This document shows positions 1,776 through 15,600 of a DNA stretch of 20,023 bases, one piece after another. The first letter of the stretch is position 1. Each line of letters starts with the position of its first letter. The DNA is taken from IMG/VR virus record IMGVR_UViG_3300034111_000311, positions 1 to 20,023 of that record; one strand, written 5' to 3'. The notes under the pieces are model-generated. The model ran no database searches, had not been told where the DNA came from, and saw nothing but the letters and a program-made list of their open reading frames with translations. The position numbers and the translations under genes are program-made. Source of the stretch: a virus.

Positions 1776-2276
1776 TCAGAAGGCCCTCGTCATAATAGCG
1801 CCGGCGTGCTTGAAGCCGGCCTTGGCGAATAGGTTCTGCAAGGATTTTGTTTCCTTCATGCCTGAAGAGATCGGCGCGGAGATGGCGCACGCGCCTTCAT
1901 TCTTGGCTATGTCCAGCATGAAGCTGACAAGCATCCGGCCAATCGGGGAGCGCCGATATTCGGGGCGCACATAGATCGTGTGGAGAACTGCGATCGGCTC
2001 CTCGCAGAAACTGTCGTCCATCGACCAAGAGATCACGCCGGCGATCTTGCCATCCACGCGAGCGATGACGTGCGGGAAAGCGCCCGTCGAGATGACGCGC
2101 TTCAACCACGCGGCTGCTTTGTTCGGTGAGTAGGTGATGCCGTTGCCGGCGTAGTCGCTCTCGGCGAAAAAGTCTTTGAACAAGTATGTCAGCGCGACAA
2201 CGTCATGCGTCGTCGCGAGATCATAATCGCAAAGCGGCAGTTTCTTCTTTACGGGAGCGTCAAGTGTTTGGTTCAT
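1776..2276 (-). CDS. GNAT-fold acetyltransferase-like protein (second of a tandem pair), 166 aa
   Basis: Residues about 68-165 show the GNAT layout: strands with VIARVDGKIAGVISW, then motif A with VLHTIYVRPEYRRSPIGRML (97-116), then a C-terminal helix and LFAKAGFKHAGA. The acetyl-CoA loop reads RRSPIG, so Pro sits where the usual R/Q-x-x-G-x-G/A has its first Gly; activity may be altered. The ATG at 2276 is chosen because the frame upstream to 2429 lies wholly inside the other acetyltransferase-like gene; this start overlaps that gene by 17 bases, with a weak GGGTG upstream. Another ATG at 2288 is possible. GNAT-like proteins occur in the structural clusters of many podoviruses. Whether this one acetylates a host or virion target, or is structural, is unknown. 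Confidence 0.75.
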   Translation of the reverse strand: MNQTLDAPVKKKLPLCDYDLATTHDVVALTYLFKDFFAESDYAGNGITYSPNKAAAWLKRVISTGAFPHVIARVDGKIAGVISWSMDDSFCEEPIAVLHTIYVRPEYRRSPIGRMLVSFMLDIAKNEGACAISAPISSGMKETKSLQNLFAKAGFKHAGAIMTRAF

Positions 2277-2727
2277 CGAGCACCCATGCATAAAGCAGCA
2301 TGTCTTGGTGCGAGGAGCCAAACCCCCTGAGAACGGCCTCTTGATTAAAACCAAGAGAGGTGAGCCACCGCTGGGAGGCTCGATTTTCGGGATGCACAAT
2401 GCACTGCGCGCGATGCAGTCCCGAAGCAATTAACGCCGGGACCATATACGCTTTTGCGTAGTCTGTCATCTCCCGAATGGCAGACTTATAGTCATTCGTG
2501 CCGAAGCCCCAAACAGTCGCCACGCCAGCATGTGCGGGCTTCGCGCCAAGCGCCATGACGGGCTGGCCGATACTCCCGGCGGCCCATTTCCACGGGGACG
2601 CATGGGCGTCGATCGCGATGCTCGCCGGCGACATATCCTCACGCGTCTCGGCGAGTTCCTGCTGGTCACGCTCGCGCAGATTGTGCGCGAGGTAGTAGAG
2701 GTCGAGGAGGGTCGCCGGGGCGATCAT
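2260..2727 (-). CDS. GNAT-like virion-module protein (T7 gp13-type candidate), 155 aa
   Basis: The N-terminus (LYYLAHNLRERDQQELAET, residues 10-28) resembles the start of phage proteins of the T7 gp13/DUF2833 kind. The C-terminal half carries a RimJ-like GNAT signature: HPENRASQRWLTSLGF (112-127) followed by QDMLLYAWVL. The central acetyl-CoA loop (motif A) is not recognisable, so it may have the fold without the activity. The gene starts directly after the TAA of the tail hub gene (TAA-ATG) and overlaps the next GNAT-like gene by 17 bases, so the two are probably co-translated. T7 gp13 is required for virion assembly; a similar role is possible but is inferred only from resemblance and position. 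Confidence 0.7.
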   Translation of the reverse strand: MIAPATLLDLYYLAHNLRERDQQELAETREDMSPASIAIDAHASPWKWAAGSIGQPVMALGAKPAHAGVATVWGFGTNDYKSAIREMTDYAKAYMVPALIASGLHRAQCIVHPENRASQRWLTSLGFNQEAVLRGFGSSHQDMLLYAWVLDEPNT

Positions 2728-8416: not shown

Positions 8417-10633
8417 TCAATGTAAGGGCTGACCTTGCGGCGGCGCTCCAGTGTTCGCGCCGGGGGCGCTAGACTGCGGCGTCGGCGGCTTCTCTGCGTT
8501 CGCGCCACCCTGTGCGCCCTGCGCCGGAGAAGCGCCGCCACCGGGCGGCAGAGGCTTCGCGGCGTTCTGCATCATTATCGACGGAGCGCCCTCGGAAAGG
8601 GCTTCGTTGATGTCCAGCTTGTCGTCCAATCTCTTGATCGCTTCCTGCGCCAAGAACATCGGCGTGATGCCCGGTATCTGCATGAGGATCGGACCCAGCT
8701 TCTCAAAGTTCGACACGGCGAGAGCCTGATCCGGCACGCCAGAACTGCCGGCCTCGATTTCGAGGTAGACGTTCTTCGCTACATCGGCCTTCGTAAGCTG
8801 CGGCCACACGGCGCCGGGGCCGACAATGTCCTTCACCGTCTCTTCAGAGACGTTCAGGATGAGGATTTCACCTGCGGCGCGAGCAAGCTGCGTCAGGGTC
8901 TCGTCGAGATCATCAGCGGCGCTGCCAAGGGCGTCTGAGCGCGACTGCTGCGCAACCTGCGTCTCAGTGGCCGTGCTGTTGCTGTTGCCGCCGAGGTTCG
9001 CCTCCTGATCGCCAACCGCGCGCATCATGTCTTGGAAGATCGGATTGACCTCATAGAGCGCGTTGTCGAAGGGATTGCCCTTGATTGGCTGCACAACCGT
9101 GTCGATGCTCTGCCCCTGCGCGAGGCCGGAGATCGAGATCAGCGCATTCACGGGATGATTGCGCAGGCTGTCCAAATCCTCCGCAGACAGCATGCCCTCG
9201 GCATACGCCAGCTTCGGGCGGTTCGCGAAGCGATGCTCGCGCATGCCCTGCCGTGTTCTGTTCAACTCCAACTGCATGGGCTTCAGGAGTTGAATATCCG
9301 ATGGCGGGAAAACCTGTCCGTCCGTCTCGTTGAACATGACGGCGAACCAAGGATAGAAGCGCTCAATCCAAGCGTCGGGCGCCGCCGGCTCCTGCAGGAA
9401 ATCGATGTAGCCGTCGCAGATGACATAAACCATGCCGTCGCGCTTGTTGTAGACCTCCCACACAAGGGCCGTGTCGCTGTCGCCCTTTGAGATGTTCGCC
9501 GTGTCGCCGCCCTGCTGCCAAGACGCGCGTGCGCTCTCGTAAGCGGTGCCGACATCGGTGCGCGAATAGGCCGTGTAGTTCGTGCCCACGTCCACGCCAT
9601 AGGTCTCTTTAATCTCGTTGACCGAGAGGAGATACTCTTCGGCAACCCAATCGCAGCCCAGAAAATCGCGTAGCTGCACGCAGCGCGGGTCGGGGATGAT
9701 CGCCGTGCTCTTGGGGTAGGAAAGCTGCAGGCCTTCGCGCAGAACGATCTCCTGCTCGCGCATAAGATCAGCCATCGCCAGACGAAGCTGTTCGGCCTCT
9801 GCGCTATCTTCCTGCGTTTCGCCATCCGCTATATCCGCAGAAATGCGTTCGACAATCGACAGGCGCTGCTCAAGATCGGCGAGGTGCGTGTCGTAGTCGG
9901 GAGATTTGCCCATGACGCGCTGGAAGCCAATCTTGATCCAGCCAACGCCGGCAGTTGCCGCGCGACGCAGCACTAACTTCATCATCGACTTGAAGGGCTG
10001 CTGCTGGCTGTCGATCTCATATTCGTAAAGAAGCTGCAGCGTCTCTGCGATTTTCTTTTCCTGATCGAGTTGCTGCTTCGCCTGCTGCGCGTCCTGAATA
10101 AGCGTCTGCGCCTGCTGCACGGCGACCGGATCAACGGGTGGGGGAGGCGGGGCCGGCATACCCGTGGCCGGGTCGATCTGCGGCGGCATCATCGCCTGCT
10201 GCTGCGACATCATCGCATTTTGGATGAGAGCCTGCGCGGCCTGCAGTGACTGCATGTTGCCGTCCCAGACGGTCGTCAGCAGTCGCTTACGTCGGCGCGC
10301 AATCGCCTTCGGATTTTTCGCATAAAGAGAGGCCACCTTCTGCTGCACATGGCGCAGCGTGATGTTCGCAACGTAGCGATCCTCTTCGGCGTCGTTAAAG
10401 TAGGACGCTTTCGTCTCACTCGGCCACTGCTTACCAGCACAGAAGCGCTGATCCTTCTCCATCTGGCGGAAGACTTTATCCCAATGCGTCTTGGCCTCGC
10501 GCACCATGCTGGACATGGCGGTGACAAGGGCCTTGCGCGACTGAGAGGGATCGGGCGTCTCGCGATCCATCACCTTCTCAGGAGTTTCTTCGGACGGGAT
10601 CGGACCCTCATCCATGAGTTCGCCGTCAACCAT
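8417..10633 (-). CDS. Portal protein (large podovirus type), 738 aa
   Basis: The portal forms the twelve-subunit ring through which DNA is packaged and ejected. The N-terminal region has HWDKVFRQMEKDQRFCAGKQ (residues 50-69) and NITLRHVQQKVASLYAKNPK (90-109), both characteristic of large podovirus portals. The length of about 740 residues is close to that of P22-type portals. Later segments include MQLELNRTRQGMREHRFANR and KLDINEAL near the tunnel and crown regions. Residues about 128-200 are Gln/Ala/Pro-rich with a poly-Pro run (PAPPPPP, 160-166), and the C-terminus is a disordered Gly/Ala/Pro tail. The ATG at 10633 overlaps the terminase stop as TGATG; TTG and GTG codons just upstream are less likely starts. 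Confidence 0.85.
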   Translation of the reverse strand: MVDGELMDEGPIPSEETPEKVMDRETPDPSQSRKALVTAMSSMVREAKTHWDKVFRQMEKDQRFCAGKQWPSETKASYFNDAEEDRYVANITLRHVQQKVASLYAKNPKAIARRRKRLLTTVWDGNMQSLQAAQALIQNAMMSQQQAMMPPQIDPATGMPAPPPPPVDPVAVQQAQTLIQDAQQAKQQLDQEKKIAETLQLLYEYEIDSQQQPFKSMMKLVLRRAATAGVGWIKIGFQRVMGKSPDYDTHLADLEQRLSIVERISADIADGETQEDSAEAEQLRLAMADLMREQEIVLREGLQLSYPKSTAIIPDPRCVQLRDFLGCDWVAEEYLLSVNEIKETYGVDVGTNYTAYSRTDVGTAYESARASWQQGGDTANISKGDSDTALVWEVYNKRDGMVYVICDGYIDFLQEPAAPDAWIERFYPWFAVMFNETDGQVFPPSDIQLLKPMQLELNRTRQGMREHRFANRPKLAYAEGMLSAEDLDSLRNHPVNALISISGLAQGQSIDTVVQPIKGNPFDNALYEVNPIFQDMMRAVGDQEANLGGNSNSTATETQVAQQSRSDALGSAADDLDETLTQLARAAGEILILNVSEETVKDIVGPGAVWPQLTKADVAKNVYLEIEAGSSGVPDQALAVSNFEKLGPILMQIPGITPMFLAQEAIKRLDDKLDINEALSEGAPSIMMQNAAKPLPPGGGASPAQGAQGGANAEKPPTPQSSAPGANTGAPPQGQPLH

Positions 10634-12198
10634 CACCAACCCCCATTCTTAACTTGCCGCTGCATTTCAGCGCGGCGCGATTGTTCTTTGATCCAACCAA
10701 ATGTGCCGCGCGCCGGCGTCTTCTTTGTCGGACGCGCCATCGTCGGGCGCACCTGCTTCGCAAGGCCCATGCCGATAAGAGCGATCGCGTCGCAGAAATC
10801 GTCGTGCCCGCCATACGGGAATTGCAGCATCTCGTTGTAGGCTTCCATATACCAAGGCGCATAGGTGGGGATGTAGACCTTCCCCATCGCCATGCGAGCC
10901 GCGATAGATTGTGCGCGCGTCATCTTGTCGTTGATCGGCACAATCTCTTCCATCATCGCGTAGATGCCTTCCTCATGCTGCCTTTTGCGGAGGAACGGCC
11001 CGATCGACTTGGAGATGTGACCTCGCTCGGCCCACCATGCGAGGGGCTTATATCGCTGCATGAGACCAAGCATCTTCTCGACAACCACGTCTGACGGCCA
11101 TCGCCCCCATTCGACATCGTCCATGATCCAGATGTTGTCGTCGGCGTCGATGCCAATGGGCAGGAGACAGGTTTTGTCTCGCTCCTGCTTGGTAGATACG
11201 GCGTGATCAGAGGCGACATAAAAACGCAACTGATCGCGGGGAGGGCGATCAGTAGGCTTAGAATAGCCACGGATTTTTTCGGCAGGGAAAAAGTTGCCGC
11301 TGTCGGGGGTGGGGCTACCTTGATAAAGGGCTTGGAAACCTCTGGGGTCTGCTTCTCGCAGTTCGTAGAGGTAGGATGATGGGAAGCGTTCAGGCCAGAG
11401 AGCTTCGCCTTCTTTGCGGCCAAGAACGTCTTTATCTTTTGCAAGTGCGGGTAGGTCAATGATCTTCCATTTCTTTGCTTCGCTCGCTGAATAGCTTGCG
11501 TTCATGGGGTCAGTAATTCTTCCGACTAAGTCATCGCCGTGCCAGCGAGTTTGAATAATAACGATCCAGCCGACACTCGACAGCAGTCGCGTTTTCAAGA
11601 CTTGGTTATACCAATTCCAGAGTTTCTCTCGCGTCGTCGGGCTGTCGGCCTCCACGCGGTCTTTGATTGGGTCATCGATGATAAGGCCGTGGCCGCCGCG
11701 ACCTGTAAGAGAGCCGCCGCGTCCAACAAAAAAGAGTTTGCCCTTCTGTTCCAGTTCAAGGCGATCCACAGACGCCGCACCCGATAGGACAGAAACCTCT
11801 GGGAAGATTTGCTGATAGATCGGGTCTTGAATAATCGCGCGAACATCTCGTCCGAAATCCCATGAGAATTTCTCATTGTAGGTCGCCTCGATGATCGAGT
11901 TGGCCGGATTGCGGCCCATATACCAAGCTGGAAAGAGCCGGGACGTGAGTTGAGACTTGCCATGACGCGGGCCGAGGTTAATGATGAGGCGCTTGATGTT
12001 GCCCTTCTCAACTTCCTGCAGCGCGTGCGCGATGACCCTGTGATGCTTCGCAACCTCGTATTCAGATTGATCTGGGTCTTCGTGTGCGTCCTGCTTTGGC
12101 ATCATAAGACGCGCGAATTGAAGCAAGTCATCGCGAGCGAGAAGCGTCGCACGCCTCCGCTTTAACGCCAGCAAATATCTCTTTTCGTCCTCGGTCAT
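10633..12198 (-). CDS. Terminase large subunit (ATPase-nuclease packaging motor), 521 aa
   Basis: The Walker A motif GPRHGKS is at residues 76-82 and Walker B LIIDD at 172-176, followed by an arm with a TRWHGDDLVGRI segment (217-228) typical of phage terminases. The RNase H-like nuclease domain has its first acidic residue in VASDHAV (Asp331), Asp-rich IWIMDDVEWG near 360, and GGHDDFCDA (464-471) supplying the late catalytic Asp residues. All key residues are present, so both ATP hydrolysis and concatemer cutting are expected. The ATG at 12198 forms an ATGA overlap with the 31-aa ORF upstream. An in-frame extension to 12336 would overlap two genes and has no terminase-like sequence. The protein ends QVKNGGW and couples to the portal by TGATG. 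Confidence 0.92.
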   Translation of the reverse strand: MTEDEKRYLLALKRRRATLLARDDLLQFARLMMPKQDAHEDPDQSEYEVAKHHRVIAHALQEVEKGNIKRLIINLGPRHGKSQLTSRLFPAWYMGRNPANSIIEATYNEKFSWDFGRDVRAIIQDPIYQQIFPEVSVLSGAASVDRLELEQKGKLFFVGRGGSLTGRGGHGLIIDDPIKDRVEADSPTTREKLWNWYNQVLKTRLLSSVGWIVIIQTRWHGDDLVGRITDPMNASYSASEAKKWKIIDLPALAKDKDVLGRKEGEALWPERFPSSYLYELREADPRGFQALYQGSPTPDSGNFFPAEKIRGYSKPTDRPPRDQLRFYVASDHAVSTKQERDKTCLLPIGIDADDNIWIMDDVEWGRWPSDVVVEKMLGLMQRYKPLAWWAERGHISKSIGPFLRKRQHEEGIYAMMEEIVPINDKMTRAQSIAARMAMGKVYIPTYAPWYMEAYNEMLQFPYGGHDDFCDAIALIGMGLAKQVRPTMARPTKKTPARGTFGWIKEQSRRAEMQRQVKNGGW

Positions 12199-12290
12199 CT
12201 TGCACTCAATAACCAGATTGCAAAAAAGGTCAGCGCCATTGCCGTTGTGACAAAAAGTAATGCGCCGGCGAGGACGCTGACCACAAACAT
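12195..12290 (-). CDS. Hidden 31-aa single-transmembrane peptide between the HTH gene and the large terminase
   Basis: An ATG at 12290 (or the adjacent ATG at 12293) opens a frame of 31 codons, closed by TGA at 12197-12195. The start overlaps the stop of the 75-aa gene as TGATG, and the stop overlaps the terminase start as ATGA, so it fills the gap exactly. The peptide starts MFVVSVLAGALLFVTT and continues with Ala, Leu, Phe, Ile and Trp. Its only charged residue is the C-terminal Arg, so residues about 3-28 would span a membrane, with the C-terminus predicted inside. There is no strong Shine-Dalgarno sequence; translational coupling is likely. Function is unknown. The precise two-sided overlaps make it more than a chance ORF, though its length keeps confidence moderate. 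Confidence 0.55.
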   Translation of the reverse strand: MFVVSVLAGALLFVTTAMALTFFAIWLLSAR

Positions 12291-12517
12291 CATGCGAACA
12301 ACCGCCCAAGAGCGATGTCGCGCACCATGCCAGCATTCATGCCCGTCATGTCGGCGATCTCATAGATCGAGACGCCCTTCGCATAGCTGTCGCGGATCGC
12401 CTTAACGTCACCCCACGTCACCTTGCTCTCTGCCAGAACACGATCCTTCAGATTGCGCACAATCGGCGCATCAGAATTCAAAGAGTTTTTGAGGCTTAGT
12501 TTCTTCTGCGTCGCCAC
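12290..12517 (-). CDS. Small helix-turn-helix protein, candidate small terminase subunit, 75 aa
   Basis: Residues about 34-73 fit a helix-turn-helix: TWGDVKAIRDSYAKGVSIYE, then IADMTGMNAGMVRDIALGRL, the pattern seen in recognition helices of phage DNA-binding proteins. The N-terminus is Lys/Ser-rich. The start is GTG, fixed by AAGGAG eight bases upstream, which makes a 47-base overlap with the preceding gene. It lies next to the large terminase gene, separated only by the 31-aa ORF. Small terminases bind pac or cos DNA with such domains and usually lie just upstream of the large subunit, so this is the best candidate in view. At 75 residues it is shorter than most small terminases, which have an added oligomerisation part. 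It could instead be a regulator. Confidence 0.65.
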   Translation of the reverse strand: MATQKKLSLKNSLNSDAPIVRNLKDRVLAESKVTWGDVKAIRDSYAKGVSIYEIADMTGMNAGMVRDIALGRLFA

Positions 12518-12884
12518 CGGCGATCTCCTTCGTTTCTGCGAGTTGACGTGTGATCCAAGGAAGCTGGGGCTGTATGATCGGCCCCTTCTTCAGTTCTTCG
12601 AGTTTCAGGATGTTGGCCTGCTCGATGTCCTTGACCTGTGGGCCAAGTATCTCTTTCAAGGCGTCGATGACCTCCTGCTCGGTGAGGTCGGCAAAGTTCG
12701 ACACAACGTCAGCATTCACCTCTGTGATGCCTGATGACGCCGCGCAGCAAGCCTGCTCATTCCAGCCGAGTTCGCCGTCAGTCGTCTGCACGCGCCACCA
12801 CACGCGCAGGACAGAGGTGATGTTGCGCTTCGCGTCGGCGACGCACTCCATGCCCTCGATGATCCACAAATGCTCAATCATCAT
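12471..12884 (-). CDS. Small conserved phage protein, possible paralogue of the 119-aa protein, 137 aa
   Basis: The first half has a W-x-IE strand (LWIIEGMEC), then VLRVWWRVQTTDGE, and the second half a helix with TEQEVIDALKEILGPQVKDI, followed by a Lys/Glu-rich helix and PQLPW. The same order (W-x-IE, WRV...DG, IxAxK...G...IE, Pro-rich end) appears in the 119-aa gene at 15241-15600, and I associate it with a widespread small phage family, probably the one labelled DUF7936. Function is not known to me. ATG codons at 12884 and 12881 are both usable; AGGAG, which overlaps the TAG of the preceding gene, lies four or seven bases upstream and favours the second. The last 47 bases overlap the HTH gene. 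Confidence 0.7.
   Translation of the reverse strand: MMIEHLWIIEGMECVADAKRNITSVLRVWWRVQTTDGELGWNEQACCAASSGITEVNADVVSNFADLTEQEVIDALKEILGPQVKDIEQANILKLEELKKGPIIQPQLPWITRQLAETKEIAGGDAEETKPQKLFEF
12525..12530 (-). promoter_or_regulatory. Shine-Dalgarno site fixing the GTG start of the HTH gene
   Basis: AAGGAG on the transcribed strand is eight bases before GTG at 12517. It lies inside the preceding gene and supports the 47-base overlap. Confidence 0.65.
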
Positions 12885-15240: not shown

Positions 15241-15600
15241 TTATTTCACCAGCATCGTCGCTGATGAGTTCAGCTTCCCGTTCTCGTCGAACGTGAAGGT
15301 CGCTGTGGGAGGGTTTAGATTGCTCGCAAGCTGCGCCTCCAATCCGGCTTCAATTTCAGCAACGCGCTCATCGCCCATAGCGGTTTTCACCGCTGCAATG
15401 ATGGTCGCCCCATCGACGCCAGCCTTCACAACTGTCTCGATAACCTGCGTCCCATAGACTGACGCAGCGTTCGGCACTTTATTGCCGAAAATATCCACGA
15501 CTGTGTTGCCGTCCTCGGCGTTTACGCGCCAATGAGCAACCGCCTTGCTGGTGTCGATCTTATCGACCACAACCTGCTCAATATTCCATGTTGAGGTCAT
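15241..15600 (-). CDS. Small conserved phage protein (DUF7936-like), 119 aa
   Basis: The protein has TWNIEQVVVDKIDTSKAVAH, WRVNAEDGNT, a SVYGTQVI strand, a helix with IIAAVKTAMGDERVAEIEAG and a conserved-looking NPP (about residues 96-98). That order is typical of a very widespread small protein near the tail genes of many tailed phages; I believe it is the family named DUF7936, but I could not check. Its function is unknown to me. The ATG overlaps the stop of the 655-aa fibre as TAATG, so the two are co-translated. Unlike most family members it has a 20-residue Asp/Asn/Thr-rich extension after the NPP. The 137-aa gene at 12471-12884 seems to be a diverged relative. Confidence 0.75.
   Translation of the reverse strand: MTSTWNIEQVVVDKIDTSKAVAHWRVNAEDGNTVVDIFGNKVPNAASVYGTQVIETVVKAGVDGATIIAAVKTAMGDERVAEIEAGLEAQLASNLNPPTATFTFDENGKLNSSATMLVK

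Follow-up and report, generated by a model that had tools for sequence, protein, structure and literature searches.

A probable coupled membrane-peptide gene ahead of the terminase large-subunit gene of a metagenomic phage, with a possible role in lysis

Small membrane proteins encoded next to and between packaging genes are found in phage T7, where the holin gene (17.5) precedes the gene for the small terminase subunit (TerS, 18) and the spanin genes (18.5/18.7) are located between those for TerS and the terminase large subunit (TerL, 19). A comparable arrangement is described here in a 20-kb metagenomic virus record, whose analysed stretch of 20,023 nucleotides is referred to as the window. 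The T7 proteins differ from the window peptide in being longer and in having lysis roles, and no phage record matched the latter. Single-span holins of KP34-like phages are about 83 residues long, carry a charged C-terminal domain, and adjoin the endolysin (PMC4411677). Like them, the window peptide is short and has one span, but it lacks their length, their charged C-terminal domain and their endolysin neighbour. Several two-span proteins, namely those of the DUF3309 family (PF11752), a 57-aa protein (L080/L044) and 66/73-aa proteins (L059/L018), share their genomic neighbourhood with the window peptide; they differ from it in their two spans, in their length (50-75 aa) and in being usually located hundreds of bases from terL. 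DUF3309 proteins are about 50 aa long, and the window peptide, with 32 aa, gave no Pfam match.

The small ORF is encoded on the minus strand, from 12293 or 12290 down to 12195, and reads ATG ATG TTT ... GCA AGA TGA, its two in-frame ATGs giving products of 32 aa (12293) or 31 aa (12290) (Table 1). The first ATG overlaps the TGA stop codon of the upstream helix-turn-helix (HTH) gene (12292-12290) as ATGA and the second one as TGATG, and the stop codon of the small ORF (TGA, 12197-12195) overlaps the ATG of terL (12198-12196). Only a weak Shine-Dalgarno-like sequence is present ahead of the small ORF and of terL. An initial annotation had described an ORF bridging the HTH gene and the terminase gene, with its start overlapping the upstream stop (TGATG) and its stop overlapping the terminase start; its coordinates and both overlaps proved right, and the strand, which had not been given, is minus. 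The same annotation held that the product is almost wholly hydrophobic with one charged residue, which was confirmed, the C-terminal Arg being the sole charged residue of the peptide.

Table 1. Position of the small ORF and its neighbouring genes in the window.
Feature	Coordinates	Strand	Details
Small membrane-peptide ORF	12195..12293	minus	product MMFVVSVLAGALLFVTTAMALTFFAIWLLSAR, 32 aa
HTH protein, 75 aa, candidate small terminase subunit or regulator	12290..12517	minus	GTG start after GGAG
Terminase large subunit (TerL), start MTEDEK	10633..12198	minus	PF03237 E 3e-12, phrog_38 E 3e-104
DUF7936 protein, 137 aa, upstream of HTH gene	12471..12884	minus	PF25590 E 3e-12
Portal protein, overlapping TerL end	8417..10639	minus	phrog_156 E 8e-11

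Membrane spans were judged by hydropathy, standing in for a dedicated span predictor. The hydropathy of the small peptide is 2.32 over 19 residues, and its AlphaFold2 model, for which no alignment was used, consists of a single helix comprising residues 2-31 (pLDDT 97). All other strongly hydrophobic ORFs of the window are nested in a larger gene or antisense to one. When both starts are kept in place, 42% of random sequences with the window composition contain an open frame. An equally hydrophobic open frame has p = 2.5e-5 under a Markov null with the window composition and p = 5e-3 (0.5%) under the composition of the small ORF or gap itself, the latter being a conservative bound because this composition already reflects the hydrophobic codons. 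Similarly, 0.8% of the 3,404 short ORFs (28-45 aa) from related loci, a comparison set that includes real genes, are as hydrophobic as the small ORF. These figures agree with the initial view that a chance ORF was improbable here, and chance is a poor explanation for the small ORF.

The HTH protein gave weak matches to HTH_38 and phrog_517 in profile searches, its model contains a three-helix HTH that is confident over residues 31-75, and its structural neighbours were HTH domains, all at E>0.1. From its position alone, this protein could be the small terminase subunit. Among other genes of the window, that of the DUF7936 protein is present in two copies amid tail-fibre genes (12471-12884 and 15241-15600, minus strand), and two successive genes for GNAT-type acetyltransferase-like proteins follow the tail genes (1776-2324 and 2260-2727, minus strand). 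No endolysin was detected in the 20-kb window.

No Pfam or PHROG family matched the small peptide, very short peptides being hard to detect, and no homologue of it was found in 50,697 phage records; the lack of a match in 17 related contigs is not informative by itself. A degenerate DNA pattern of the peptide core found no match in IMG/VR. A search with TerL yielded 48 IMG/VR loci, to which an alignment search added more, and the window's peptide was absent from all of them. Used as the sole query, the HTH protein recovered no relatives among viral contigs, whereas tblastn against the related loci did find them. A pattern built on the 3' end of the HTH gene matched four known contigs plus one chance case (L157), and none in 84,980 genomes.

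The closest relatives are four contigs (L001, L002, L012 and L045) with a terminase 95-99% identical to that of the window. The HTH proteins of L001, L045 and L012 are 48-51% identical to the window's, and the last 39 bases of the HTH gene show 92% DNA identity to the window in all four contigs. The HTH gene is followed in them by a 41-aa membrane ORF, VRENDLEAIMAFIGFWASVTLGVVLVTFIVLLVRWAAAVHD, whose start shares a GTGA with the HTH stop codon and which, in all but L012 (L001, L002 and L045), ends 8 nt inside terL. Only 0.4% of the short ORFs in the comparison set are as hydrophobic. All three substitutions found in this ORF among its contigs are synonymous (p about 0.02 if neutral), a test that comprises three changes only and concerns the neighbour-family ORF, not that of the window; in the adjoining HTH protein, 13 of 65 residues have changed.

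This 41-aa ORF resembles the window's in its place after a related HTH gene, its overlapping junctions and its one span, as well as, in three contigs out of four, in immediately preceding a terL of 98-99% identity; counted from an internal ATG, it has 32 aa, as in the window. Unlike the window ORF, it is longer and has a charged N-terminus, a GTG start and an 8-nt overlap with terL, and apart from composition the sequences of the two peptides are not similar: the window peptide aligned to the L001/L045 product with a score of 22, against a shuffle mean of 22.8, and 56% of the shuffles scored as high. To judge from their sequences, either replacement or divergence past recognition may separate the two peptides. 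In L012, the 41-aa ORF is separated from terL by an HNH gene and has itself not changed. The inserted HNH endonuclease gene (L012:4110-4960 and L003:1-560) opens with a remnant of MTEDEK, the old TerL start; terL behind the insertion has a new start, MSQDKQ, and its first codons after the HNH gene are recoded in the DNA, with protein identity still about 95%.

Relatives at 74-76% TerL identity (among them L004, G001, G002 and G004, at 75-76%) have a slot without such a membrane ORF. An ATGA couples the HTH gene straight to terL in L004, and the slot is occupied by a 177-aa protein in the contig of L006, by a 60-aa protein in L008, and by a 110-aa protein rich in Ala and Lys, with a single moderately hydrophobic segment, in L007. 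The proposal that the peptide acts in membrane docking of packaging found no support, since its sequence is not conserved, it is absent at 75-76% TerL identity, and in other relatives the neighbourhood is occupied by unrelated membrane ORFs.

Across 66 non-redundant relatives whose TerL was at least 50% identical, the wider terL neighbourhood, from 1.5 kb before to 2.8 kb after terL, was surveyed for ORFs of 24-80 aa that were not nested and contained a strongly hydrophobic segment. Seventeen such ORFs were in sense and three in antisense orientation, in a survey with simple thresholds whose sense/antisense control is no formal significance test. They are located before terL, between terL and the portal gene, or beyond the latter, sometimes near an endolysin gene, and include DUF3309 (PF11752) proteins. 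The 57-aa two-span family occupies three different packaging-operon junctions in the relatives; it is found before terL in L080/L081, between terL and the portal gene in L082, L084 and L087, and about 3.9 kb after the terL start in L067-L069. The initial annotation had regarded the ORF as a deliberate gene and a membrane peptide inside a packaging operon as unexpected. The former idea is strengthened by the hydrophobic ORF of the closest relatives, with its synonymous-only change, while the latter is refuted by the 17 versus 3 recurrence together with the T7 arrangement. The small ORF is very probably a fresh example of a recurrent kind, not an oddity.

We consider it highly likely that the small ORF is a real, coupled membrane-peptide gene. 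Its translation would be coupled to that of the HTH gene upstream and of terL downstream, its product would be a single-span peptide of the inner membrane, and it would fill a variable slot by terL in which this phage group repeatedly puts tiny membrane-protein genes. Its likeliest role would be in lysis, whether as a small holin, as a helper of one, or as a remnant of the lysis cassette found ahead of terL in sister phages, although the full reading, a genuine coupled single-span peptide gene with a role in lysis, is proposed tentatively and at somewhat less than even confidence. Lysis is ranked first because sister phages keep lysis genes nearby and because L059 has a single-span ORF of 31 aa overlapping the end of its endolysin gene and, after it, a 66-aa two-span ORF, a member of the 66/73-aa family (L059/L018) that comes after the endolysin in this locus. 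Several relatives at 57-68% identity encode a GH19-like endolysin ahead of terL, at a distance of about 1.2-2.3 kb (4 kb in L043), and the endolysin gene of Rhizobium phage RHph_N65 lies about 2 kb before terL. Confidence in lysis stays under one half because the endolysin of the closest long relatives is encoded elsewhere: where its gene was located at 75-76% TerL identity (contigs of L006 and L005), it lies on the opposite side of terL, about 15.8 kb downstream in the L005 contig, so that the slot is not a lysis cassette there.

With regard to holin traits, the window peptide has at least one span in a short protein, as indicated by hydropathy and the helix at residues 2-31. A hydrophilic, charged C-terminal tail is absent, there being a single terminal Arg; no endolysin neighbour is present within the window; and no Pfam or PHROG profile matches the peptide. 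The label of holin is left unsupported by these three absences. Assignment as an i-spanin or o-spanin was rejected, since the peptide has no residues outside the span and no Cys, and consequently neither a periplasmic domain nor a lipobox. Two further observations concern endolysin regions of the relatives: the RHph_N65 endolysin (L051:1700-2530) has an apparent hydrophobic, probably membrane-spanning segment near its C-terminus, and a four-span bestrophin-like protein (PF14023; L135:9098-9859), a possible holin or channel, is encoded shortly after an endolysin.

The interval could instead be untranslated, or it could encode the N-terminal part of an extended TerL, as the TerL frame continues without a stop up to an ATG at 12336; such a longer frame can hide a small ORF. 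However, TerLs 98-99% identical to the window's begin at MTEDEK and have an in-frame stop at -81, a stop lies immediately ahead of the TerL start in L004, and upstream of this start relatives show no conservation of the TerL reading frame. The gap before terL is therefore real, and the longer TerL from 12336 was rejected. Given also the low probabilities of so hydrophobic an open frame (2.5e-5; 5e-3), chance or mis-framing is improbable. The small hydrophobic toxin of a type I toxin-antitoxin system, controlled by an antisense RNA, would resemble the peptide in its TisB-like size and hydrophobicity only, but the plus strand has one weak promoter-like site, about the number expected by chance, and the location inside an operon leaves no room for a control region of its own, making this explanation highly improbable. 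A terminator-like site inside the small ORF is likewise at chance level.

A host-takeover or superinfection-exclusion peptide, that is, the product of an accessory gene blocking competing phages or modifying a host membrane complex, is the main alternative to lysis, though rather unlikely. The accessory-like contents of the slot, unrelated among relatives (membrane ORF, HNH gene, 60-aa or 110-aa proteins), and the lack of relationship between the window and L001 peptides, with over half of the shuffles scoring as high, would be consistent with it, but the position among packaging genes suggests late expression, which would be late for exclusion, and no family or neighbour supports such a function. 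It is unlikely that the ORF serves as a translational spacer, carrying ribosomes from the HTH gene into terL and yielding an inert peptide, even though the overlaps at both junctions, the weak Shine-Dalgarno-like sequences, and the direct ATGA coupling of the HTH gene to terL in L004 would all fit this function. A spacer has no need of hydrophobicity, yet two unrelated slot sequences both encode a span, which makes this explanation less likely than lysis or exclusion; moreover, the ORF of L012 is unchanged despite the HNH insertion before terL, although this insertion may be recent.

A coupled single-span peptide gene with a role in lysis is thus the reading preferred here. In a bolder version, to which we give little credence, the product would be a functional effector of lysis or exclusion that, with only 31-32 residues, ranks with the smallest of its kind, and terL junctions would be a general docking place at which tiny membrane genes are swapped. 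Gene callers often overlook genes of this length, and in this case the longer terminase frame can also hide the gene; the exchange of tiny, mutually unrelated membrane ORFs near the genes for terminase and portal in the relatives points to an under-annotated class of phage membrane peptides.
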